Below, one piece after another: positions 1-51,316 of a stretch of 64,000 bases of DNA. A program made the translations under genes and the position numbers. The DNA lies in contig SLTJ01000005.1 of the NCBI GenBank assembly GCA_004347685.1, forward strand, positions 1 through 64,000, in the 5' to 3' direction. This DNA comes from Clostridia bacterium. Its GTDB lineage: Bacteria > Bacillota > DSM-521 > Neomoorellales > SLTJ01. Below the pieces are notes generated by a model, which did not search any database, was not told the DNA's origin, and saw only the letters and a program-made list of their open reading frames with translations. Position 1 is the stretch's first letter. Every line of letters starts with the position of its first letter.

Positions 1-194
1 AGCCGAGTCCAGTACTATTTTTCAAGCTGGCACAGGGTGGCTGAGCAGTTACCTTAATTCTATTCATCCTCAAGCCAGGTTTCTATGAGCTGCATCACAT
101 CCGGGTACCATATCTGGTATGGTTAACCTTCATTTTTTGCTACAGAGGTTGGGAGGGGGCAATACATGTAAGTTGAAGACGGCTGTTGGCGGGC

Positions 195-432
195 TTACCC
201 TCTGCAATAACGTTGGACCACCCCGGCGATAAATGGCTTAAAATCATCGAGGTTCTCCTGGATAATCTTCCAGAGCTCATGGTCATCCACCCGGTCGTAT
301 AAGTGGTCGAGGCGGTTCCGGAAGCGGGCCATCGCTTCGTACGCTGGGAGCATGTCCTCGGGAATAAGGCCGTTTCGGGCCGCAATAATGACAGCTTCCC
401 GGTAAGACTTGGGCAGACCCCTGGAGGTTGAA
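195..432 (-). pseudogene. HepT-like (DUF86/HEPN) toxin, C-terminal fragment
   Basis: On the minus strand an open frame reads as the C-terminal half of a HepT/DUF86 protein and ends at TAA (195-197). It contains RNRLDHLY, which fits the Rx4-6HxY catalytic signature of HEPN RNases, followed by an acidic helix (ENLDDFKPFI) typical of the family end. The N-terminal half is missing, no start codon precedes the homology and no MntA nucleotidyltransferase partner is nearby. Family knowledge: HepT is the toxin of HepT/MntA pairs. I infer a dead remnant. The catalytic motif itself is undamaged. Confidence 0.6.
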
Positions 433-486: not shown

Positions 487-1767
487 CTAAGCGCACAGCA
501 CCTGGCCGTAGCCGAAATCGGGCCGCAGCAGCCTATGCTTTAGTCTGGTCACCTTGGCCTTCTTGCGCATCAGGGCGCTGTAGACGCCGGCCTGGCGGAT
601 GTCTCCTACCAGAATAAGACCGACGATGATGTCGTCCTTCAGGACTATCTTCTTGTAAAGATTGTGTTCGGGCCGGTACTCCTTCAGGATTTCGTAGCCG
701 TCACCATCAGCCTGAGCCAGGCCGACAGCTATGGCCGGCACATCGCGAAACTCAACCGCGTTCTGCATGCCGATCATCCCGCCATACTCCCGGGGTATTC
801 CGGCCATGTTATACCCGGCCACCCGGCCCTGAGCCACGGCGTTGGGCCAGATGGGGGTCAGGCCGATACGGCCGCTCACCACATCCTCAGTCTCAGCCAC
901 ATCGCCGCCGGCGTAAACGCCTTCCATACCGGTGGACTGGTATTTATCCACCACTATCCCCAGGTTTACCTTTACCCCAGTTCCCTCCACCAGCCCGGTG
1001 TTAGCCCGGGTGCCGGTGGCCACGATGACCAGCTCGGCCTTGAGATGGTCGCCGTTCTCCAGGATGACGCCCCGACCAGCCTTACCAAAGACCTTTTCCC
1101 AGAGACCCGGGGCCGCGATTTCTTTTATTCCCGCACCCAGGATAAAGCGGATGCCCTCGGCCTGCATTTCCCGCAACAGGATGGCGGCCGCGCATGCGTC
1201 AAACTGCTGCGGCAGGATCTGCGGCATCTTCTCCACCACCGTCACTTCCAGCCCTCGGTGGTACAAGGCCCAGGCTGCCTCCAGACCCACGAAGCCGCCG
1301 CCGATGATCACCGCCCGGCGCGCCCGGCCGGCCTGGGCCAGAATCTTTTTGGCATCCTCCAAAGTGCGCAGCCCGTAGACCCCTTCCCCGGTGATCCCGG
1401 GAACGGGCGGCATAAAGGTGGAACTACCGGTGCTGATAAACAGACGATCGTACTTGAGCCTGGCGCCATTGTCCAGGCGGGCCACCTTTTCTCCGACATC
1501 CAGCCTTACCAGGTTGCGGGCCACGATGGTGTCCGCGGTGGCGCCGCAGATGGCCACGTCGGTCTTTTTGGTGATACGGCAAGGACCATGGCTACACAAC
1601 TGGCAGCATACCCCCTGCATGCCAAAACCGCACTGCGGCTGCTGCGCCTCGTAGCGGTCGAAGATGGTGGCCAATCCCATGGCCCGCGTCCGGTCATACA
1701 TTTCATTGGTGCTGCGGTGGGCCGAAACGCAGGTTCCCTGGGCACTGCAAGCGGAACAACTCGTCAT
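487..1767 (-). CDS. Chimeric ORF: CooS N-terminus fused to CODH-associated FAD/NAD oxidoreductase
   Basis: This 426-codon open frame joins residues 1-89 of the CO dehydrogenase encoded at 19071 to residues 83-419 of the oxidoreductase encoded at 21639. The junction is at about 1500 and is in frame. A parental segment equal to 2547 bp (849 codons), including the rest of cooS and all of cooF, is absent. The N-terminal piece keeps the cysteines of the CooS B and D clusters (CGFGMQGVCC, CSHGPC) but lacks every C-cluster ligand. The C-terminal piece keeps the NAD-type GGGFVGLEAA motif and the late AGGD FAD motif but has lost the N-terminal FAD Rossmann loop. The junction shows short homology (AAGG-N-TGG in both parents). 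The start ATG has the same GGGGGAG Shine-Dalgarno site as cooS, and CRP-like sites remain upstream. It may be expressed, but cannot act as a CO dehydrogenase and probably not as a normal flavoenzyme. Confidence 0.85.
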   Translation of the reverse strand: MTSCSACSAQGTCVSAHRSTNEMYDRTRAMGLATIFDRYEAQQPQCGFGMQGVCCQLCSHGPCRITKKTDVAICGATADTIVARNLVRLDVGEKVARLDNGARLKYDRLFISTGSSTFMPPVPGITGEGVYGLRTLEDAKKILAQAGRARRAVIIGGGFVGLEAAWALYHRGLEVTVVEKMPQILPQQFDACAAAILLREMQAEGIRFILGAGIKEIAAPGLWEKVFGKAGRGVILENGDHLKAELVIVATGTRANTGLVEGTGVKVNLGIVVDKYQSTGMEGVYAGGDVAETEDVVSGRIGLTPIWPNAVAQGRVAGYNMAGIPREYGGMIGMQNAVEFRDVPAIAVGLAQADGDGYEILKEYRPEHNLYKKIVLKDDIIVGLILVGDIRQAGVYSALMRKKAKVTRLKHRLLRPDFGYGQVLCA

Positions 1768-1953: not shown

Positions 1954-1992
1954 TATGATGCAGTTCACACTCTAACTGTGACTTTCATCACG
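1954..1992 (-). promoter_or_regulatory. Tandem CRP-type sites upstream of the chimera
   Basis: Two TGTGA-N6-TCAYR-like palindromes lie at 1977-1992 (TGTGACTTTCATCACG on the plus strand) and 1954-1969 (TGTGAACTGCATCATA on the minus strand), 23 bp centre to centre. The pair of sites upstream of cooS has the same spacing. A TAGGAT -10-like hexamer follows the nearer site by 21 bp in both loci. The layout is conserved although the sequence around it has diverged. Binding by the CRP-like protein of this window is an inference. Confidence 0.55.
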
Positions 1993-2008: not shown

Positions 2009-2950
2009 AGCCATAAGGGGACCTGCGGCCGGTGCGCTATCAAGATCAAAGAGGGCAAGGTACGAACCCGGGAAGGAAACATCGGTGCCCGCCTGCGGCG
2101 TACCGGCCACGTGCTCGCCTGCCAGACTTTGGTGGAAGGCGATGTGCTGGTCGAGGTGCCCAGGGACTCCCGGCTGGACGAACACCCGGTGCTCCTGGCC
2201 CGCCGGGCGGAGAGCGGAGAATTGGCGGAAAAGGAGCTCGACCTCCTGGAAGGCTAGGCCTTTGATCCCCTGGGCCGGAAAGTGTACGTGGAGCTTCCAC
2301 CCCCTTCCATAACGGCACATGCCACTGATCTCAGCCGGCTGGAGATCGATCTGCGGAAAAGGGTTCAGGCCGGCCACTTCCATATCGGCCTCAATAACCT
2401 GCGGCGGCTGGCCGAAGTGGTGCGGGCCGGCGACTGGAAGGTTACCACCACCCTGGCCCACATGGACGGGTTTACCGAGATAGTGAACCTGGAGCCAGGC
2501 CGTTCCCCGGGCCGGGCCTACGGCCTAGCCATTGACATCGGAACCACTACAGTAGTCGTTTATCTGGTGGACCTGGCTACCGGGGCCAGGGTGGACCAGC
2601 GTGGCGGGTACAACAAGCAGGCCCGCTACGGCGACGACGTTATCTCTAGAATGATCCACGCTACCGAAAACGGCGGGTTAAATGAGCTGCTCGCGGCGGT
2701 GATTGCTACTATAAACGAGCTAGTAGAGAAGCTGGTCCAGCGTAACGGGATCGCCAAGAGCGATGTTTGCGTTGCCGTATCGAAGCCTGCCGTCTTTCCC
2801 GGTATCCAAAGCCTGCTAAAGACCGTGCAAATGGATGTAAATGATATTGACCGGGTCCTGATTGCCGGCGGCTTTGGCAACTACCTGAATATCCGGGATG
2901 CAATTCAGATCGGGTTGCTGCCGGACCTGCCGGCGCCAGCCGGAAACTAA
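2009..2950 (+). pseudogene. Decayed copy of the ASKHA/RACo corrinoid-activator gene
   Basis: This is a damaged paralogue of the intact gene at 9285-11189, with about 80 percent amino-acid identity by eye where both exist. Homology starts at the ferredoxin cysteine region (GTCGRCAIKI), so about the first 40 residues are gone. A TAT-to-TAG change at about 2255 stops the frame in the linker (LEG-stop-AFDP). The following frame restores the ASKHA phosphate motif DIGTTTVVVYLVD. About 220 residues are then missing: sequence near RNGIAKSDV jumps to FPGIQSLLKTVQ. The frame ends early after GLLPDLPA. It lies divergent to the chimeric coo gene, with the CRP-like sites between them. No functional product is expected. 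Confidence 0.85.
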
Positions 2951-3089
2951 ACTTGTCCGAAGTGTTGGCCTCCCGCTCGGCAGTGGAAGTACGCCCCAGA
3001 GCGGAATTTCCGCCTGTTTCGTCCGGCATCTATTGTCCCTCCTGAACGTCTTGTTGGCTTTCCTGGCCGGCCTGCCGGAGCGGCTGTGG

Positions 3090-4133
3090 CCAGGTGGCAG
3101 TGCCAGCGCCGGTCCCGGCCAAAAGGGGTGACGTTGCGCTCGGCCACCAGGGCCCGGGAGATCAGGTCGGCCAGCTCCGCCTCCACCGGCGTGCCGCCGG
3201 GCCGCGGCAGCTCCACCTTCACCACCCCCATCAGCGGGTAGTCCAGCTCCCGCTGCTCCCGCAGCCGCACGTACCAGAAGGCTACTTTGCCGTTGTAAGC
3301 ACTGAAGGCGGCCGTCCGGTGGGCGTGAGGCAGGCCGGCCAGGATGGCGGTAACGTCCCGGCGGTCCTCACCCCGGCCCCGGGACCTGCGGCCTAAGTAA
3401 AACTGCGGGTCCTTACGGAACGACTTGGCCACCCCGACAAGATACCGGCTCTCCACAAACTCGTCCAGCTTTACCGCGCCGTCTAGGATCAGCCAGTTGT
3501 GCGCGTCGCGAGAGCCATCCGTGGCCCTGATCATTTCGATCTCCAGTTCGTGCATGCGGTGCCTGGCTTTGGCCCCGGCTTTGTTACGCAGGTCGCCTTC
3601 CTGCTCACCCCGGTTCAAGGCATGGGCTTTACCAACGTCGTGGAGCTCGACGAGCCCGTCTGCCCGGTGAAAGCGTTCCAACTGGTGCCAGACGCGTCCG
3701 AAATTCCCCTCGCCCCTTTGGGGAGTAGGAGCAACACCTTGTATTTGCTGGCCAGCACCCGGAGGTTACCATCGGGCCGGCGTTCGATCACGGCCGCGCC
3801 CACCTGGGCCAGCTCAATGGGGAAGGAACGGTTCCCTTCAATACCTGTGGCCAGGAAATAGGTGCGGATGCTGCCGTCAATGAAGAACCGGTAGAAGGGC
3901 TGCTCGATGCGGGGCAGTGGAGGCGTGGGCCGGTAAAGGGAGGTCAGGCTGGGTGTCGGCGTCTCGGCAAAGGCCGTTACTTCTCCCATCTCCCGGTTGA
4001 TCAGGGCATCCTCTAGCTCGTCAGGGTCTGGATGCAGGTAGTCTTCCACCGCCTTCCCGGCCGCCGGTAGCACGCCTATGTTGTCGGCCAACACTTCCAG
4101 TACCGGCGTTAATTCGGCCAGGGGATTGGGCAC
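3090..4133 (-). pseudogene. NurA-domain nuclease-like gene, frameshifted and truncated
   Basis: Two overlapping minus-strand frames make one protein. The first (from 4133) contains FYRFFIDGSIRTYFLATG, which fits the first acidic motif of NurA nucleases. The second contains NWLILDGAVKLDEF, a second acidic motif, and continues to PFGRDRRWHCHL. The switch of frame falls at a GGGG run on the coding strand (plus 3706-3709), so one lost G would explain it. Homology ends at about 3100, before the usual C-terminus. NurA partners the HerA helicase in DNA-end processing, and no herA is seen here. A sequencing error could explain the frameshift but not the truncation. Confidence 0.55.
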
Positions 4134-4250
4134 GAGTATTACCCCCTAGATTTCACAGACCATCACCATGTAGATAATTTCTGCGCAGGCGGAGGAAAGT
4201 CCTGCCACAGCGGGAGGTCAAAAGTAATCCAGGCCCATCTTATTTTTGTG

Positions 4251-5991: not shown

Positions 5992-6166
5992 GCTGCTCCC
6001 CCCGTTCTGTTCAAGTCTTCAGGCATCATTCCCCGGCACATCCGCCCGCCGGCAAACCCCATGCCGGGGAGAGATGGGGGGCTTCCTGGATGTAGCTTAC
6101 CAGCCTTTGCCTCCTGTGGCTGTGATGCATGATACAATTTCACCGACAGAGGTAGCAGCAGGTGTT

Positions 6167-6470
6167 CTACCAGAGGGGTGGGAAAAAGCGGTGGGTAACT
6201 AATTGGTCAAAGAGGATCAGGAGGCCGAGAGCCCATACGTAGAAACTGAAGGCGCGCATGTTGCTGCGGGTCAGGAGGTGAATCATGAAACGGATGGCCA
6301 GGTAGCCGCTGGCACCTGGCTACCACCCCTAAAAGGGCCGGGAGCAAAGGCAGGGAGGAGCCGGCCGCTGCCGGCAGGTCGCGCAACTCCACCAGCCCGG
6401 CCCCCAGGATGGCCAGGTGCAGGAGCACGTCAAAAAGCAGGGCTGCTTCTTCCAGCCCAAAAAGCCGCTG
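6167..6470 (-). pseudogene. uppP remnant with internal deletion and frameshifts
   Basis: This is a damaged second copy of the UppP gene found intact at 17582-18394. The C-terminal end (FDQLVTHRFFPPLW, stop TAG at 6167-6169) and the ILGAGLVELRDLPAAA segment are recognisable but in different frames. The segment near LAILGAGL is then joined to sequence matching the parental N-terminal third (a run ending with CCCAAAAAGCCGCTG). About 400 bp are missing, with TGGCC present at both parental break sites. It is nonfunctional. Confidence 0.7.
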
Positions 6471-7296
6471 GCATGTGCGCCAGCCAGACCGGCTTTACGC
6501 CTACGCCTTCTTTGAAGGCTTTCCGTATGACGGCTTCAATTATTTTCCAGTACGGAAAGTTCGCCGCCGTCCGGTTGAACTTCTTATTCGTGTCCAGCCG
6601 GTCTTTGCCAAAATCCAGATCCTCTACCGCCAGGGGTTTGCCCAAGGTCTTGGCTATACCTACCACCACTTGGGTCAGCACGCCGATAAAATAGGTGCGC
6701 CGGTCCCCCCGGCTGTAGGCCAGTTCCGGCATCTTGATGTATAGAAACCCATTCGGGTGTACCGCGACCTGAAACTCTTCCGAACTTGAGCAGCGCTTTC
6801 GGGTAAGGGACCGCGAAGCCTTCCGGCCACGGCTCCGGCTGGCCGGTGTAACCCACGTTGGCCAGGGCCGCGCCGTCCGGGTTAGCGTCCACCCCCAGGT
6901 AGCCCAGGTTGGGGTCGGTAATAACCTGCGGGGCCTCCACGGCAAAGGTAATGTGCGCCCGGTAACGGTTATCACGCCCCTTGATCAGTTCCACAGTGTA
7001 GGGGGCTCCCGTGAGAAGCAGTTCCCACACTCCCAACCGGTGCTTCTCTGGCACCCAGAGCCGGCCCTCTACCCGGGGCGCTCTGGCCATCGCCGGTCGC
7101 CCTTTGCTGTCTGTGCCGGTCTGTCTCGACAGGTGAGAAATAGCGATCGATAAGGCGAACTTACCGTTCTGGTAGCTTATCCGGAGGTTCGGGTTGCCGT
7201 CCTTGGTTTCATCCCCCCAGCTTCTTTTTGGCCCGCGCCAGCTTGGCCCGAGACTCCTCGATCTCCAGGGCCAGCAATTCTTTCTGCAGGAGGGTG
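6471..7296 (-). pseudogene. TnpB-like (IS605 OrfB family) transposase-associated nuclease, broken
   Basis: Across several minus-strand frames the sequence reads as an IS605 OrfB/TnpB-like protein: an upstream helical part (LLQKELLALEIEESRAKL), VEGRLWVPEKHRLGVWELLL, the first RuvC motif GYLGVDANPDG, then after a shift near 6780 the second RuvC motif LAVEDLDFGKD and NFPYWKIIEAVIRKA. The C-terminal zinc-ribbon and last RuvC aspartate are absent: homology stops at KPVW, where the uppP remnant begins. The upstream end stops where the IS701 fragment starts. Inactive. Confidence 0.6.
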
Positions 7297-7302
7297 CCCA
7301 AT

Positions 7303-7977
7303 ATGATCTTGCATCAGCCGGACTGGAACCCGGGACTGCTGGCGGAGATCGGCCTGAACGCCGAAGAGGTGGAACAACTCGGAACCCTGTTGGACGAATA
7401 TCTGGCCTATTTCCAGGACTGTTACCAGCGCCGCGAACAACAAGAACACGGGGAGACGTTTGTCAAAGGCCTCTTGAGCGATCTGGACCGCAAATCCATC
7501 GAGCCCATTGCCTTGCGCTATGAGGGTGAGAAGGCGGTCCGACCGATGCAGTTTTTCTTCCAGCGTTCCCCTTGGGACGAGCAGAAGATGCTCCAATTGT
7601 ACCAAAAGCGCCTTGCTTCCATGGTGAATGACCCGGACGGGATGATTACCGTGGACGGGTCCGACTTCCCCAAAAAGGGCACCCATTCGGTAGGAACGAG
7701 TCGCCAGCATTGCGGCATCCTGGGCAAGACGGACAACTGCCAGGCCGGTGTCTTCATCGGTTACTCCGGGGCACATGGTTACGGCCTGGTGGACCGGCGG
7801 CTCTACTTGCCCCAGAAGTGGTTTGACGAAGATCACAAGGCCCTGCGCGAGCGCTGTGGTGTGCCTGAGGATGTCACCTTTGCTACCAAGCAGCAGGGTT
7901 TAGCTGTCAAAGAACCGCCCCGGATCTTCTCCATTAACCCGTCCGGGAAGAAGGAGGCTCTAGTAACACGCGGCTAA
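7303..7977 (+). pseudogene. IS701-family transposase, N-terminal half
   Basis: From ATG 7303 the frame resembles the N-terminal half of IS701-type DDE transposases: VKGLLSDLDRKSIEPIAL, the first catalytic aspartate region TVDGSDFPKKGTHSVG, then LGKTDNCQAGVFIGY and GLVDRRLYLPQKWF. Homology fades after about residue 200. The remaining 25 codons do not fit, and the frame stops at 7977, so the rest of the DDE domain is lost. It abuts the TnpB-like remnant, so one probably inserted into the other or they were joined by deletion. Confidence 0.65.
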
Positions 7978-9192: not shown

Positions 9193-9208
9193 TGTGATGC
9201 CCGTCATA
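9193..9208 (+). promoter_or_regulatory. CRP-type site upstream of the ASKHA gene
   Basis: TGTGATGCCCGTCATA matches the TGTGA-N6-TCAYR pattern seen upstream of cooS. It lies 77 bp before the preferred start codon and downstream of the 9063 promoter, so it could serve a second promoter or act as a repressor site. Confidence 0.4.
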
Positions 9209-9284
9209 GCTGCCCCGGGTCCCGGTAGGTAGAATGGTGGCAAAACAGGACAGCGCGAGTCTGCGTGCAGAGGAGATGGTAGAA

Positions 9285-11189
9285 ATGCCCCAGCAATATT
9301 CGGTGCTCTTTCTCCCGGATAATGTGACCGTGCAGGTGGAGGCCGGCGAAAGTATCTTCCGGGCCGCCTCCCGGGCCGGGATTGAGTTAAAAAGCACCTG
9401 CGGTAATAAGGGGACCTGCGGCCGGTGCGCCATCAAGATCAAAGAGGGCAAGGTGCGTACCCAGGAGGGGAATATCGGCGCTCGCCTGCGGCGTACCGGC
9501 CACGTACTGGCTTGCCAGACATTGGTTGCGGGCGACGTGGTGGTCGAGGTGCCCAAAGACTCCCGCCTGGACGAGCACCAGGTGCTCTTGGCTGGCCGGG
9601 CCGACCAGGGCGAGCTGGTCGAAAAGGAACTCGACCTCCTGGAGGGCTATGCCTTCGAGCCTGTCGGGCAAAAGGTATACGTAGAACTGCCCCCGCCTAC
9701 CCTGACGGGGAACGCCACGGACCTGAACCGGCTGGAGATCGAACTGCGCAAAAAGGTACCGGCCGGGCATTTCCACATCGGCCTTAACAACCTGCGGCGC
9801 CTGGCCGAGGTGGTGCGCGCCGGTGACTGGAAGGTTTCCGCCACCCTGGCCCACATGGACGGGCTTACCGAAATAGTGGACCTGAAGCCAGGCTCCTCCT
9901 CCACCCAGGCCTACGGCCTGGCCATTGACATCGGGACCACCACGGTAGTGGTCTACCTGGTGGACCTGAACACCGGGGCGACGGTGGACCAGCGGGGCGG
10001 GTACAACAAGCAGGCCCGCTACGGTGACGACGTTATCTCCCGGATCATCCGCGCCACCGAGAATGGTGGACTAAATGAGTTGCACACCGCCGTGATCACC
10101 ACCATCAATGAACTCGTTGAGAAACTGGTACAGCGGAACAAGATAGACCGCGCTGACATTAGTGTAGTCGTAGTGGCAGCCAATACCACCATGACCCATA
10201 TGTTTCTCGGGCTGCCGCCCAAGTATATTCGCCTAGAGCCCTATATCCCTACCGCCTCTGAATTCCCGCCGGTAAAGGCCGGCGAACTCAACCTGGCCAT
10301 CAACCCCGACGCGTGGGTGCTCTGCTTCCCGGCGGTGGCCAGCTACATGGGCGGCGATATCGTGGCCGGTGTCCTGGCCACCCGGCTGGCAGAATCCGAC
10401 GCGCTCACTCTGTTTATTGATATCGGTACCAACGGCGAAATGGTGCTGGGCAACCGGGACTGGATGATCTCCTGCTCGTGTTCAGCCGGACCGGCCTTTG
10501 AAGGCGGTGGTATCACCTTTGGGATGCGTGCCATGAAGGGGGCCATCGAGCGGGCGACCATTGACCCCCAAACCTACGAGGTGGAGGTACAGGCCATCAG
10601 CGGCTACCGGCCCATAGGTATTTGTGGCTCCGGCCTTATTGACCTGCTGGCTAAACTGCGGCGCGCCGGCCTCATTGACCGTACCGGGCAGTTTACCCGG
10701 GATACTGTCACCCCGCGGCTACGCCAGACGGATGAAGACACGGAGTTCGTGCTGGTCTGGGGCAGTGAAACCGAGTGCGGCAAGGATATCGTCATCACCG
10801 AAAGCGATATCAAGAACATCCTCCGCTCCAAGGGAGCGGTCTTTGCCGGCATCCAGAGCCTGCTGAAGGCGGTACAACTGGACGTGCATGATATTGACCG
10901 GCTCCTGATTGCCGGCGGCTTCGGCAATTATTTGAACATCCACGATGCCATCCAGATTGGGTTGCTACCGGACCTTCCGGTTGAGAAATACGCGTTTGTG
11001 GGCAATACCTCGGTCAAAGGGGCCAAGCTGGCCTTGCTGTCGCGGCCCGCCCTCGAGGCGGCCCAGGAACTGGCGCGCAAAATGACTTACCTGGAACTAT
11101 CCGCCGGTTCCTCCTTCATGGACGAATTCGTCTCGGCCCTTTTCCTGCCCCATACTGACCTTTCCCTCTTTCCTTCGGTGAAAAACTGA
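9285..11189 (+). CDS. ASKHA-domain [2Fe-2S] protein, reductive activator of corrinoid protein (RACo-like)
   Basis: The protein is about 634 residues from the preferred ATG (AGGAG 9 bp upstream); an upstream in-frame start at 9234 would add 17. The N-terminus is a [2Fe-2S] ferredoxin domain with STCGNKGTCGRC and a later LACQ cysteine. After a linker comes the ATPase-like ASKHA domain (DUF4445) with LAIDIGTTTVVVYLVD, FIDIGTNGEMVL, GICGSGLIDLLAK and LIAGGFGNYLNI. RACo proteins use ATP to return an inactive Co(II) corrinoid protein to Co(I), keeping methyl transfer to acetyl-CoA synthase going. No corrinoid protein or methyltransferase gene lies beside it here, so its partner is unknown. A CRP-type site is upstream. 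A decayed paralogue sits at 2009. Confidence 0.85.
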   Translation: MPQQYSVLFLPDNVTVQVEAGESIFRAASRAGIELKSTCGNKGTCGRCAIKIKEGKVRTQEGNIGARLRRTGHVLACQTLVAGDVVVEVPKDSRLDEHQVLLAGRADQGELVEKELDLLEGYAFEPVGQKVYVELPPPTLTGNATDLNRLEIELRKKVPAGHFHIGLNNLRRLAEVVRAGDWKVSATLAHMDGLTEIVDLKPGSSSTQAYGLAIDIGTTTVVVYLVDLNTGATVDQRGGYNKQARYGDDVISRIIRATENGGLNELHTAVITTINELVEKLVQRNKIDRADISVVVVAANTTMTHMFLGLPPKYIRLEPYIPTASEFPPVKAGELNLAINPDAWVLCFPAVASYMGGDIVAGVLATRLAESDALTLFIDIGTNGEMVLGNRDWMISCSCSAGPAFEGGGITFGMRAMKGAIERATIDPQTYEVEVQAISGYRPIGICGSGLIDLLAKLRRAGLIDRTGQFTRDTVTPRLRQTDEDTEFVLVWGSETECGKDIVITESDIKNILRSKGAVFAGIQSLLKAVQLDVHDIDRLLIAGGFGNYLNIHDAIQIGLLPDLPVEKYAFVGNTSVKGAKLALLSRPALEAAQELARKMTYLELSAGSSFMDEFVSALFLPHTDLSLFPSVKN

Positions 11190-11605: not shown

Positions 11606-11691
11606 AACTGGACTATGTAGCGTCATGCACATCGGCAACTGTGACGCAGGTCATAGAATTCAGCTATCTCAGCATGTAACATAGATACTGC

Positions 11692-17581: not shown

Positions 17582-18394
17582 TTACCACAGGGGCGGGAAA
17601 AAGCGGTGGGTCACTAATTGGTCGAAAAGAACCAGGAGGCCCAAAGCCCACACGTAGAAACTAAAGACGCGCATGTTGCTGCGGCTGAGCAGGCGAATCA
17701 TGAAGCGGATGGCCAAGTAGCCACTCACCCCTGCGGCCACAGCCCCCAGGAGGGCCGGGAACCAGGGTAGAGAAGTGCTGGCAGCCGCTGGTAGGTCGCG
17801 CAACTCCACCAGCCCGGCCCCCAGGATGGCCGGGGCCGAGAGGATGAAAGAGAACCGGGCCGCCGTCTCCCGGTCCAGCCCCCGGAAAAGCGAGCCGGCT
17901 ATGGTCAATCCCGAGCGGGAAATGGCCGGCAGGATGGCCAGGCCCTGCATGGTGCCGATAAAGGCCGCATCCAGCAAGGAAATGCGTTCCATGGTTTTCG
18001 GGTTGTACCTGGGTCGCTGGCTTTCGGCCAGCCAGAGCACCAGGCCGGTGATAATAAACTCCACCCCCAGGCTCTGGCCGCTGGCAAAGAGCCGGTCGAA
18101 GAAATCGCGGAAGGCCAGGCCGATAATGCCGGTGGGGATGGTGCCGGCCACCAGGAGCCAGGTAAGGTGGGAGGCCGGTCGGCGCAAGATGCCGGCAAAC
18201 TCCCGGTAAAAGACGACCAGGACCGCAACCAGGGTGGCCAGGTGCAGGACAACGTCAAAGAGCAGGGCCGCTTCCTGGAGCCCAAAAAGCCGCTGAAAAA
18301 GGACCAGGTGCCCGGAACTGCTGACCGGGAGAAATTCGGTCAGGCCCTGGACAAAACCGAGGATAATCGCTTCCCAGCCGGTAAGAGAACCCAT
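17582..18394 (-). CDS. uppP: Undecaprenyl-diphosphatase UppP (BacA)
   Basis: The protein is 270 residues from the ATG preceded by AAGGAG (an upstream in-frame start at 18424 would add ten). It has the two family signatures GLTEFLPVSSSGHL and PAISRSG in a multi-helix membrane protein, and ends RFFPPLW. It dephosphorylates undecaprenyl pyrophosphate, recycling the lipid carrier for cell-wall synthesis and giving bacitracin resistance. A deleted, frameshifted copy lies at 6167-6470. Confidence 0.9.
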   Translation of the reverse strand: MGSLTGWEAIILGFVQGLTEFLPVSSSGHLVLFQRLFGLQEAALLFDVVLHLATLVAVLVVFYREFAGILRRPASHLTWLLVAGTIPTGIIGLAFRDFFDRLFASGQSLGVEFIITGLVLWLAESQRPRYNPKTMERISLLDAAFIGTMQGLAILPAISRSGLTIAGSLFRGLDRETAARFSFILSAPAILGAGLVELRDLPAAASTSLPWFPALLGAVAAGVSGYLAIRFMIRLLSRSNMRVFSFYVWALGLLVLFDQLVTHRFFPPLW

Positions 18395-18633
18395 TGCTAA
18401 CTCCTTCCTGCGCCCCAGGGGCAAAAAACTAAGCTCACCGCGCTAATCAGTCCGTAGGGGAACCCCCGTGGTTGCCCATTTTCGTTGGGCGGCCAGGGGA
18501 CCGCCCCTTTGTCCGGCGGAATTATTTCCAACCTGGAACAACCCCGGGTTCTTTTACGTCTAAGAAACGGCGGCACGGTCATTATATCACCGGCCGTCCT
18601 CCCAGACAACAAGTTTTTGTCTCGAGAGCCAGG
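18395..18633. other. Intergenic stretch, nothing recognised
   Basis: No gene is supported. The sequence runs from the uppP start to the MprF-like remnant. Confidence 0.35.
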
Positions 18634-18785: not shown

Positions 18786-18851
18786 TGTGATCAGAATCAC
18801 ACTAGAAGTGTGAGTTGCGTCACGGTTTTCGTACCGCCCGGGTGATAGGAT
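18786..18851 (+). promoter_or_regulatory. CO dehydrogenase promoter with two CRP-type sites
   Basis: The perfect palindrome TGTGATCAGAATCACA lies at 18786-18801 and TGTGAGTTGCGTCACG at 18809-18824, with centres 23 bp apart. An extended -10 (TGATAGGAT, hexamer 18846-18851) follows, and no good -35 is present. If transcription starts at about 18858, the sites centre at -41.5 and -64.5, the class II geometry of CRP, FNR and CooA activators. Which regulator binds is not shown by the sequence. The CRP-like protein at 50660 has a matching recognition helix. Confidence 0.6.
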
Positions 18852-19070: not shown

Positions 19071-20969
19071 ATGACGAGTTGTTCCGCTTGCAGTGCCCAG
19101 GGAACCTGCGTTTCGGCCCACCGCAGCACCAATGAAATGTATGACCGGACGCGGGCCATGGGATTGGCCACCATCTTCGACCGCTACGAGGCGCAGCAGC
19201 CGCAGTGCGGTTTTGGCATGCAGGGGGTATGCTGCCAGTTGTGTAGCCATGGTCCTTGCCGTATCACCAAAAAGACCGACGTGGCCATCTGCGGCGCCAC
19301 CGCGGACACCATCGTGGCCCGCAACCTGGTAAGGCTGGCCGTGCACGGCACCGCAGCCTATACCCATCACCTAGAGGAGTTGGCCCGGACCATCAAGGCC
19401 ACCGTGGCTGGCAAGACGCCCTTTAAGATCGGGGACGAGGCCAAGCTGCGGGAAATAGCCAGCCTGGTTGGCCTGGACGCCAAGAAACCCGCCGGCGAAC
19501 TGGCCACGGCCCTGGCCGACATCATCCTGGCTGAGCTGCGCAAAGGCTCTGACGAGCCCCTGGCCCTGGTGAACCTGCTGGCACCCAAAACGCGCCTGGA
19601 GGCATGGCAAGAGTTGGGAGTAGTTCCTGGCGGCGTGCTTTCGGAAATCCGTGACGCCCTGACCAAATCCATGACCAGCATTGATACCGACCCGGTGGAC
19701 CTGCTGCTCACCGTGGTGCGCTTGGCCCTGGCCGCCGGCTACATGGGCCTGGTAGGCACCATCACCATCCAGGACATCCTCCTGGGCACCCCCAGCCTGG
19801 CCCAGAGCGAGGCCGACCTGGGGATAATTGACCCGGAGACGGTGAATATCGTGGCCCACGGCCACGTGCCGCTGGTGGCCACGGCTGTCATTCAGGCCAG
19901 CCAGGATCCCGAGATGCTGAGCTTGGCCAAGAAGGCCGGCGCCAAGGGAATCAGGGTTTACGGCTCTATGTGCACCGGCCAGGAGCTCATGCAGCGTTCG
20001 GCCACCAGCGCCAAGGGCTTTGCCGGGCAACTTTCCAACTGGCTGGCCCAGGAATACTACGTGGCTACGGGCGCGGTGGACCTGGTCATGATGGACATGA
20101 ACTGCTCTATCCCCGGCCTCAAGACCGTAGCTGACCGGTTCCACACCCGGCTGGTGAGCGTGGACCGCATCGTCCGCATGGCCGGGGTGGAAGACCACGT
20201 GGATTACGCCCCGGAGAAGGTGGCGGAGCAGGCCCGCGAGCTCATCAAGATGGCCATCACGGCCTATAAAAATCGGGGTCAGGACATCCACATCCCGCCG
20301 TACAAGAACCCGGCAGTAGCCGGTTTTGGCGTGGAAACTATCCTCGGGGCCCTGGGCGGCAGCCTGGACCCGCTGCTGGACGCGGTAAAGAAGGGCAGCA
20401 TCAAAGGCATCGCCGCGGTGGTCGGCTGCACCAATAACCGCAACGGCCATGATACCCGGGGCCTGACCATCATGCGCGAACTCATCAAGAATAATGTCCT
20501 GGTTATTGCCGCCGGCTGCATGTCCAGCGCGGCCGAAATCGAAGGTTTGATGCGGCCCGAGGCCGCGGACCAGGCCGGCGAAGGGTTGCGGGGAATTTGC
20601 CAGGCTCTTGGCATCCCGCCGGTACTGAACTTCGGCTCCTGCGTGGACATTGGCCGCATCGGCGTGGCCGTCACGGCCATTGCCGGCGCTTTGGGGGTAG
20701 ACCCGGCCCAACTCCCGGTAGTGGCTTCAGCGCCGGAGTACCTGGAGCAGAAGGCCGTAGTGGACGGCGTCTTTGCCGTCGCTTTCGGCATCACCACCCA
20801 CCTGGGGCCGGTGCCGCCGGTCACTGGCAGCGAACTGGTGACGAAGATCCTGACCCAGGATATCGAGGGCCTGACCGGCGCCAAGTTCCTGGTGGAGGAA
20901 GACCCTGAGAAGGCGGCCCAGGCCATGCTGGCCGTGATTGACAGCAAGCGCCAGGCCCTGGGCATCTAG
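19071..20969 (+). CDS. cooS: Anaerobic Ni-Fe carbon monoxide dehydrogenase catalytic subunit
   Basis: The 632-residue protein has all CooS landmarks. The N-terminal CGFGMQGVCCQLCSHGPCRI block supplies the B- and D-cluster cysteines. The C-cluster ligands are His265 (GHVP), Cys301 (GSMCTG), Cys345 (MNCSIP), Cys453 (VGCTNN), Cys483 (AAGCMS) and Cys524 (GSCVDI). The acid-base histidine HGTAAYTHH and lysine SAPEYLEQK are present. It oxidises CO to CO2 or works in reverse as a homodimer in the cytoplasm. It lacks the partners of an acetyl-CoA synthase, and cooF and a flavin oxidoreductase follow, so it probably feeds electrons from CO to NAD(P). Start: ATG behind GGGGGAG. Its first 89 codons are repeated in the chimera at 487-1767. 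Confidence 0.95.
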   Translation: MTSCSACSAQGTCVSAHRSTNEMYDRTRAMGLATIFDRYEAQQPQCGFGMQGVCCQLCSHGPCRITKKTDVAICGATADTIVARNLVRLAVHGTAAYTHHLEELARTIKATVAGKTPFKIGDEAKLREIASLVGLDAKKPAGELATALADIILAELRKGSDEPLALVNLLAPKTRLEAWQELGVVPGGVLSEIRDALTKSMTSIDTDPVDLLLTVVRLALAAGYMGLVGTITIQDILLGTPSLAQSEADLGIIDPETVNIVAHGHVPLVATAVIQASQDPEMLSLAKKAGAKGIRVYGSMCTGQELMQRSATSAKGFAGQLSNWLAQEYYVATGAVDLVMMDMNCSIPGLKTVADRFHTRLVSVDRIVRMAGVEDHVDYAPEKVAEQARELIKMAITAYKNRGQDIHIPPYKNPAVAGFGVETILGALGGSLDPLLDAVKKGSIKGIAAVVGCTNNRNGHDTRGLTIMRELIKNNVLVIAAGCMSSAAEIEGLMRPEAADQAGEGLRGICQALGIPPVLNFGSCVDIGRIGVAVTAIAGALGVDPAQLPVVASAPEYLEQKAVVDGVFAVAFGITTHLGPVPPVTGSELVTKILTQDIEGLTGAKFLVEEDPEKAAQAMLAVIDSKRQALGI

Positions 20970-20997
20970 TGAGCCCACCTGCTCACCTCAATATAGA

Positions 20998-21028
20998 GCC
21001 GGGCCGGCGCCCCTGGCGCGGGCCCGGC
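20998..21028 (+). other. Strong hairpin between cooS and cooF
   Basis: GCCGGGCCGGCGCC pairs with GGCGCGGGCCCGGC over 13 base pairs with one mismatch and a three-base loop. There is no T-run, so it looks like an mRNA stabiliser, processing site or partial attenuator that could set the cooS to cooF ratio. Confidence 0.55.
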
Positions 21029-21135
21029 AGCCCCTTCGACAAGGAACATTTGCTCTTGCGTAGTTAGAGGTTAATGAGTCTAAGGTGGGTTACTGCATAA
21101 CCTTCAGGAAAATCAGTCCGGAAAGAAGGTGTCCT

Positions 21136-21642
21136 ATGAAGGAGATCATGGTCTATACCGAGCGCTGCAACGGCTGCCTGACGTGCGTCCTGGCCTGCGC
21201 CGCGGCCCATGCGGAGGATAAGACCATCGTCGGGGCCATGGCTGCCGGAGTACCAGGCCGCCTATTCATCCAGGCCGTCAACGGCCGACCGGTGCCGGTC
21301 CTCTGCCGCCACTGCGAGGAGCCGGCCTGCGTGGCCGCCTGCATGACCGGCGCCATGCAAAAGGACCCCGAGACGGGGATAGTGACCAATGAAGGCCACG
21401 AGCAGACTTGTGTCGGCTGCTGGATGTGCATCATGGCGTGTCCCTACGGCGCAGTCGTGCCGGCACCGGGTAAGGAAAAGATGGCCATTAAGTGCGATCG
21501 CTGCCCCGACCGGGACGTGCCAGCTTGCGTGGCCGCCTGCCCCAACCTGGCCTTGGCTTTCATCGAGCCGGAGGATTTTGCCAGGGAGCGGCAAAAGTCC
21601 GTGGCTACAGCCCTGGCTGTCGAGGCAGGTGTACCAGCATGA
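21136..21642 (+). CDS. cooF: CooF-type four-cluster ferredoxin
   Basis: The 168-residue protein has many cysteines in polyferredoxin spacing (CNGCLTCVLAC, CRHCEEPACVAAC, CVGCWMCIMACPYG, CDRCPDRDVPACVAAC), enough for four [4Fe-4S] clusters as in CooF/DmsB/HydN proteins. It takes electrons from CooS and gives them to a partner. The ATG at 21136 (after GAAGG) is preferred over an upstream in-frame start. It overlaps the next gene by 4 bp, so electrons probably go to that oxidoreductase. Confidence 0.9.
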   Translation: MKEIMVYTERCNGCLTCVLACAAAHAEDKTIVGAMAAGVPGRLFIQAVNGRPVPVLCRHCEEPACVAACMTGAMQKDPETGIVTNEGHEQTCVGCWMCIMACPYGAVVPAPGKEKMAIKCDRCPDRDVPACVAACPNLALAFIEPEDFARERQKSVATALAVEAGVPA

Positions 21643-22898
21643 CGGCCTACGTCATTGTCGGCAACAGCGCGGCCGGGATTAGCGCCGCCGAAACCATCCG
21701 CCGCCTGGACCCGGAGGGTGACATAACCATCGTGGACGTCGAGAAGACGCCGGCCTATTCCCGCTGCCTGCTGCCCAATTACCTGGGCGGGACCCGGAGT
21801 GAAGATGCCCTGCGAATCCGGCCCCGGGACTTTTACCAGAAACTGCGCCTTAACACCTGCTTTGGTTACCGGGTGGCAAGGGTGGATGTCGGAGAAAAGG
21901 TGGCCCGCCTGGACAATGGCGCCAGGCTCAAGTATGATCGTCTGTTTATCAGCACCGGTAGTTCCACCTTTATGCCGCCCGTTCCCGGGATCACCGGGGA
22001 AGGGGTCTACGGGCTGCGCACTTTGGAGGATGCCAAAAAGATTCTGGCCCAGGCCGGCCAGGCTCGCCGGGCGGTGATCATCGGCGGCGGCTTTGTGGGC
22101 CTGGAGGCGGCCTGGGCCTTGTACCGCCGGGGCCTGGAGGTGACGGTGGTGGAAAAGATGCCCCAGATCCTGCCGCAGCAGTTTGACGCATGCGCGGCTG
22201 CCATCCTGCTCCGGGAAATGCAGGCCGAGGGCATCCGCTTTATCCTGGGAACCGGCATCAAGGAGATCGCTGCCCCGGGCCTCTGGGAAAAGCTTACCGG
22301 CAAGGCCGGCCGTGGCGTCATCCTGGAGAACGGAGATCGCCTCAAGGCCGAGCTGGTCATCGTGGCCACCGGCACCCGGGCTAACACCGGGCTGGTGGAG
22401 GGAACTGGGGTAAAGGTAAACCTGGGGATAGTGGTGGATAAATACCAGTCCACCGGTATGGAAGGCGTTTACGCCGGCGGCGATGTGGCTGAGACTGAGG
22501 ATGTGGTGAGCGGCCGTATCGGCCTGACCCCCATCTGGCCCAACGCCGTGGCTCAGGGCCGGGTGGCCGGGTATAACATGGCCGGAATACCCCGGGAGTA
22601 TGGCGGGATGATCGGCATGCAGAACGCGGTTGAGTTTCGCGATGTGCCGGCCATAGCTGTCGGCCTGGCTCAGGCTGATGGTGACGGCTACGAAATCCTG
22701 AAGGAGTACCGGCCCGAACACAATCTTTACAAGAAGATAGTCCTGAAGGACGACATCATCGTCGGTCTTATTCTGGTAGGAGACATCCGCCAGGCCGGCG
22801 TCTACAGCGCCCTGATGCGCAAGAAGGCCAAGGTGACCAGACTAAAGCATAGGCTGCTGCGGCCCGATTTCGGCTACGGCCAGGTGCTGAGCGCATAG
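21639..22898 (+). CDS. CO dehydrogenase-associated FAD-dependent NAD(P) oxidoreductase
   Basis: The 419-residue pyridine nucleotide-disulfide oxidoreductase family protein has an N-terminal FAD Rossmann motif VIVGNSAAGISAAE, a central NAD motif VIIGGGFVGLEAA, a late FAD motif YAGGDVAE, and a C-terminal dimer-like domain. A CRCLLPNYLG-like stretch (SRCLLPNYLGG) near residue 42 recalls NADH oxidase and rubredoxin reductase relatives. The cooS-cooF-oxidoreductase order is known from several CO-using bacteria, where it is thought to link CO oxidation to NAD(P)H. It overlaps cooF by 4 bp, showing translational coupling. Codons 83 onward are repeated in the chimera. Confidence 0.9.
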   Translation: MTAYVIVGNSAAGISAAETIRRLDPEGDITIVDVEKTPAYSRCLLPNYLGGTRSEDALRIRPRDFYQKLRLNTCFGYRVARVDVGEKVARLDNGARLKYDRLFISTGSSTFMPPVPGITGEGVYGLRTLEDAKKILAQAGQARRAVIIGGGFVGLEAAWALYRRGLEVTVVEKMPQILPQQFDACAAAILLREMQAEGIRFILGTGIKEIAAPGLWEKLTGKAGRGVILENGDRLKAELVIVATGTRANTGLVEGTGVKVNLGIVVDKYQSTGMEGVYAGGDVAETEDVVSGRIGLTPIWPNAVAQGRVAGYNMAGIPREYGGMIGMQNAVEFRDVPAIAVGLAQADGDGYEILKEYRPEHNLYKKIVLKDDIIVGLILVGDIRQAGVYSALMRKKAKVTRLKHRLLRPDFGYGQVLSA

Positions 22899-50659: not shown

Positions 50660-51316
50660 CTATTCACGGCCGAGCTGCCGTAGGCGCTTCAGATCCAGGA
50701 TGGTGATGTGGGACCGGGAAAGACGCAAGATACCCTGGTTCTGCAGATCAGCAAGAGTGCGGCTCACCGTTTCGCGGGATGACCCCACCAGGCTGGCCAG
50801 GCCGGTTTGGGTCAGGGCCAGGTCCAGGCGGACACCCTCCGGGGTCTGCACGCCGAAATCCCGGGCCAGCTTGAACAGGCGGCCGGCAATGCGGCCGTAG
50901 GTGCTTTTCAGAGCCAGACTGCTGATCTGGCGGTAGCAGGTGCGCAGGCGGGAGGCGGCGGTGGCGAGAAGGAGTTCGTTCAGGTCGGGACACCGCCGGC
51001 GCAGTTGGTGCAATTCCTCCCTGTTTATCAGGGCCACCTGGCTGGTATCCATGGTTTCCACGGTCAAGGGCTGGGGGCCACCGTCCAGGACCGCAATTTC
51101 TCCCAGGAGTTCACCCGGGCCCAGGAGGTGGATGATCTTCTCCCGGCCCTGGGCCGAAAGCCGGTAAAGCTTCACCTTGCCCTCCAGGAGAAATCCTAGC
51201 GCTTCCCCGGGGTCTCCCTCCGTGAAGATGGCCCGGCCGACCTGGTAGGTGCGCGCGCTGGCCCGGGCTGCCACGGCCTGCCTGGTTTCCGCTGTCAGAT
51301 TGAACTGTTCCAGCAT
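50660..51316 (-). CDS. CRP/FNR family transcription regulator
   Basis: A 218-residue protein with a cyclic-nucleotide-binding-like domain (GEALGFLLEGKVKLYRLSAQ, GELLGEIAVLDGG) and a C-terminal helix-turn-helix (LASLVGSSRETVSRTLADL). The recognition helix SRETVSR keeps the Arg-Glu-Arg pattern by which CRP reads TGTGA. That matches the sites upstream of cooS, the chimera and the ASKHA gene. No N-terminal FNR cysteines and no clear CooA heme His/Cys77 are seen, so the signal is unknown. Confidence 0.85.
   Translation of the reverse strand: MLEQFNLTAETRQAVAARASARTYQVGRAIFTEGDPGEALGFLLEGKVKLYRLSAQGREKIIHLLGPGELLGEIAVLDGGPQPLTVETMDTSQVALINREELHQLRRRCPDLNELLLATAASRLRTCYRQISSLALKSTYGRIAGRLFKLARDFGVQTPEGVRLDLALTQTGLASLVGSSRETVSRTLADLQNQGILRLSRSHITILDLKRLRQLGRE

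Follow-up and report, generated by a model that had tools for sequence, protein, structure and literature searches.

Does an open reading frame that joins the beginning of one enzyme to the end of another represent a young fusion gene or a pseudogene that still looks intact? The question is raised by a frame of 1281 nt at 487–1767 (minus strand) of the window analyzed here, a stretch of 64,000 nucleotides from a Clostridia bacterium. It runs from ATG to TAG over 426 codons without stop or frameshift, and the predicted product of 426 residues consists of CooS residues 1–89 followed by residues 83–419 of an oxidoreductase (FNOR). The mechanical ORF call begins nine codons further upstream, at 1794; the ATG at 1767 is homologous to the cooS start and is preceded by a ribosome site (GGAGGGGGAG). 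An intact cooS-cooF-FNOR operon at 19071–22898 (plus strand) served as the reference copy. The cooS head of the chimera (1500–1767, minus strand) comprises 268 nt with 0 differences from intact cooS (19071–19338), and beyond it the frame tracks the FNOR gene (21639–22898) through to the stop codon, with the FNOR tail occupying 487–1502 (minus strand).

The two parts meet at a TGG microhomology (1500–1502, minus strand). Compared with the intact operon, the chimera lacks 2547 nt, or 849 codons (19339–21885, or an equivalent interval), comprising the end of cooS, the whole of cooF and the first 82 FNOR codons. The repeats at the junction, GGTAAGGCTGG in cooS and GGCAAGGGTGG in FNOR, are identical at 9 of 11 positions and share an exact homology of 3 nt (TGG); among random cooS/FNOR junctions, a match of at least 9/11 arises in 0.3% of draws, and an exact homology of at least 3 nt in 6.6%. 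An earlier, sequence-only reading had described the locus in these terms: CooS 1–89 joined to oxidoreductase 83–419 in 426 uninterrupted codons behind a ribosome site, by a 2547-bp deletion with short homology at the break, leaving an FeS-cluster stub on an oxidoreductase that lacks its first FAD loop, downstream of CRP-like sites. This description is borne out in full, with a two-part match that is exact to the base and that lends good support to the proposal that a second coo operon suffered an in-frame deletion. The same reading had missed a mosaic pattern of identity, the adjoining broken duplicates and the nearby contig start in shared end sequence.

The upstream region of the chimera is a diverged paralogue of that of the intact operon, although the local match is borderline against shuffled controls, 1 in 300 of which was equally good. 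A pair of CRP-type palindromes is kept (1954–1992, minus strand; sites 1954–1969 and 1977–1992), spaced 23 nt apart, as is the counterpart pair ahead of the intact operon (18786–18824, with sites at 18786 and 18809). Across the window, a search for TGTGA-N6-TCACA with at most one mismatch returned eight palindromes, against 0.9 expected; further examples lie at 9193–9208 and 11640–11655, and one precedes the intact RACo ORF by 25 nt. By eye, an ORF at 50660–51316 was assigned to a Crp/Fnr-like regulator.

Beyond the exact cooS head, the divergence between remnant and intact operon, newly observed here, is distributed as a mosaic: 0 of 268 nt differ, a stretch of about 10% divergence follows, and this gives way to an identical run of 549 nt. 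The FNOR part contains 39 differences, of which 37 fall within ORF nt 318–723 (one at 318 and 36 in 443–723), none over the 549 nt and two in the last codons. When 39 differences were placed at random, the longest identical run averaged 106 nt and, over 20,000 trials, reached at most 311 nt. A second, unrelated paralogous pair, located on different contigs (3092–4169 of the window versus 9711–10789 of contig C2), is likewise mosaic, with identical runs of 476 nt and 176 nt between diverged stretches, where random expectation for the longest is about 94 nt. This pattern suggests recent gene conversion between paralogues, although repeat collapse in assembly could give a similar mosaic; the literature on gene conversion and short repeats yielded nothing specific. 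As the deletion sits in an identical stretch, it probably postdates the most recent exchange between the copies. That a locus already carrying the deletion was simply copied is ruled out by the FNOR block, which is about 10% different, and by upstream and downstream flanks that differ.

The diverged block also carries a record of past selection. There, 30 of 94 codons differ and only six of these change the residue (dN 0.039, dS 0.54); this mostly synonymous change indicates that both versions evolved mostly as working enzymes before the deletion, and the second operon thus appears once to have been functional. Polarizing the amino-acid differences against orthologues did not assign clearly more changes to the chimera, and at site 227 the phenylalanine of the chimera is more typical than the residue of the intact copy. 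After the lesion, no change has accumulated in the 268 and 549 nt of identical sequence, and the remaining differences are older and mostly synonymous; there has therefore been no time yet for stops to arise in the open frame.

The chimera adjoins at least four other broken duplicates within 6.5 kb. A RACo-like pseudogene (2013–2933, plus strand), 82% identical to the intact gene at 9234–11189, is truncated at its 5′ end and has an internal TAG and a net in-frame deletion of 654 nt. A truncated duplicate (187–421, minus strand; 93%) of a 141-aa gene on contig C1 lies on the other side; the original on C1 adjoins what by eye is a nucleotidyltransferase-like ORF. An intact two-gene unit on contig C2 has a broken duplicate at 2932–4169 (minus strand), with one gene cut down to its start and the other frameshifted, and a uppP/bacA-like pseudogene (6138–6470, minus strand; intact counterpart at 17582–18424) has suffered a 408-nt in-frame deletion and a 2-nt frameshift. 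An ORF near this block (7228–7977) matches a DDE_5 transposase domain. The remnant (1767) and the intact operon (19071) form inverted repeats that face each other head to head across about 17 kb, and recombination between them could in principle invert the intervening DNA.

The contig (C19) begins 486 bases from the chimeric ORF, and its positions 1–52 are common to several other contig ends, probably as the end of a multi-copy insertion sequence. Given this start so near the ORF, in sequence shared among contig ends, the draft assembly is weakest precisely here. The chimera might be an artefact: the genome would then contain a longer second locus or none at all, and fragments of the intact operon would have been joined or copied during short-read assembly or gap filling. 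The genome is a draft of 54 contigs, and the alternation of identical and diverged runs, both here and in the unrelated pair shared with C2, is something that collapsed repeats could produce. However, an exact overlap of 3 nt is too short for an assembler join, the 39 differences in the FNOR part (two of them at its very end) and the different flanks show that it is not a simple copy, and the upstream region is that of a diverged paralogue. We therefore consider an assembly artefact unlikely.

If the junction is genuine, the CooS N-terminal Fe–S stub on a truncated NAD(P)H oxidoreductase might form a new redox protein. The frame is open, a ribosome site and an operator pair precede it, and the stub has the complete set of D-/B-cluster cysteines (Cys 46, 54, 55, 58, 63 and 74), in the pattern C-X7-CC that corresponds to the definition of a type II D-cluster (PMC6344411). 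The NAD(P)-binding Rossmann fold is retained (PF00070 match at remnant residues 151–218), together with the C-terminal domain. By contrast, CooS is reduced to less than a fifth of its length: the C-cluster ligands and catalytic domain are absent, and only profile positions 1–39 of 513 of the Prismane/CODH domain (PF03063) remain. Among the missing FNOR residues 1–82 are the FAD loop (GNSAAG) and the motif SRCLLP, both of which vary little across 15 orthologous sequences (13 distinct), so that a FAD enzyme would have to operate without its FAD loop and without the conserved cysteine of SRCLLP.

Neither the distribution of the chimera nor its substitutions speak for a new function. The sequence-only reading had proposed searching relatives for the same junction; this was done, and among the hits listed from a DNA search of 40 relatives none spanned both parts. 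A protein search covered 398 genomes of the phylum, this one included, which was the sole representative of its genus among all genomes searched. Among the top matches listed for the 397 others, with few candidates scored per genome, none spanned the fusion; these matches cover the CooS part or the FNOR part, never both. A scan of genome contigs also listed no match spanning both parts, and in the literature cooS-cooF-FNOR clusters are described, with no such chimera among the entries listed. No substitution can be attributed specifically to the period after the deletion.

Two features that might be taken as signs of function, the preserved frame and the low dN/dS, lose their force against controls from the same window. 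Counting repeated 6-, 8- and 10-mers within 15 long genes, 62%, 72% and 84% of repeats, respectively, lie at distances that are multiples of three, versus 33%. Short repeats in these genes being mostly in phase, a deletion length divisible by three is to be expected, and the weight that had been placed on 2547 as a multiple of three is accordingly slight. All three internal deletions measured in the block (2547, 654 and 408 nt) are multiples of three, as such a phase bias would favor; in-phase short repeats would bias repeat-mediated deletions toward in-frame products. The RACo pseudogene, which is certainly broken, has both an in-frame deletion and a similarly low dN/dS of about 0.1, so neither feature demonstrates function, and the low dN/dS of the FNOR block of the chimera reflects the time before the lesion.

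With its neighbors broken as well, a young functional fusion is very unlikely, and we hold it just as improbable that a fusion has been caught at birth, with the old promoter driving a hybrid whose stub serves as a new redox partner or acts dominantly on the dimer of intact CooS. A role for the remnant purely at the level of DNA or RNA, whether as a decoy for a CRP-like regulator or, through its inverted orientation about 17 kb from the intact operon, as a substrate for inversion or conversion, is extremely unlikely. The operator pair is kept, and identical stretches of 268 and 549 nt lie in inverted orientation, but nothing indicates that either effect takes place or is under selection, and both are expected by-products of any inverted duplicate.

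The chimera is thus very probably the recent deletion remnant of a decaying second coo operon, with a non-functional product. The sequence-only reading had left two fates open: the intact-looking pseudogene is favored, and the young fusion gene is disfavored by the absence of the FAD loop and of the CODH active site, the broken neighbors, the lack of a counterpart elsewhere and the lack of a selection signal specific to the fusion. The locus has an intact paralogue, an internal loss and essential parts removed, as expected of a pseudogene; against this stand the open frame, a plausible promoter region and the ribosome site. Because the identical parts are too recent for visible decay, the call is based on the structure of the locus and its context rather than on accumulated damage.

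In the sequence of events that we propose, the genome would once have carried a second, regulated cooS-cooF-FNOR operon. This operon would have diverged under purifying selection, with gene conversion probably moving segments between it and the intact copy. A recent slipped or microhomology-mediated deletion between short imperfect repeats in cooS and FNOR would then have removed 2547 bp, with the reading frame surviving owing to the predominance of codon-phase spacing among short repeats in these genes. Having kept its promoter region and ribosome site, the remnant is probably expressed at some level, and would make a non-functional protein and decay together with its neighbors.

As a fusion gene, the chimera is probably of no importance; it is useful as a case of a duplicated CODH operon soon after the loss of its middle. 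That a frame is open, a deletion length is a multiple of three and dN/dS is low does not, even in combination, prove a working chimera, and the codon phase of short repeats in coding DNA suggests a possible reason, namely that repeat-mediated deletions tend to give in-frame hybrids.

Among known systems, the Ni-CODH/FNOR clusters of Inoue et al. (2019; PMC6344411) have the gene content and order of the parent operon at 19071–22898, and the CooS stub shares their type II D-cluster pattern C-X7-CC, whereas in the remnant CooF is gone entirely, as are the active-site region of CODH and the FAD loop of FNOR. Compared with pyridine nucleotide-disulphide oxidoreductases (PF07992; nearest solved relative by sequence, 8c0z_E), the remnant matches profile positions 67–291 with the NAD(P)-binding fold kept, but is devoid of the first 66 positions, which carry the FAD-binding GxGxxG-type loop. 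The remnant resembles deletion-fused pseudogenes of duplicated operons in that a deletion between short repeats struck the second copy, an intact paralogue exists and other broken duplicates adjoin it; it differs from them in its open frame and its mosaic identity to the intact copy.
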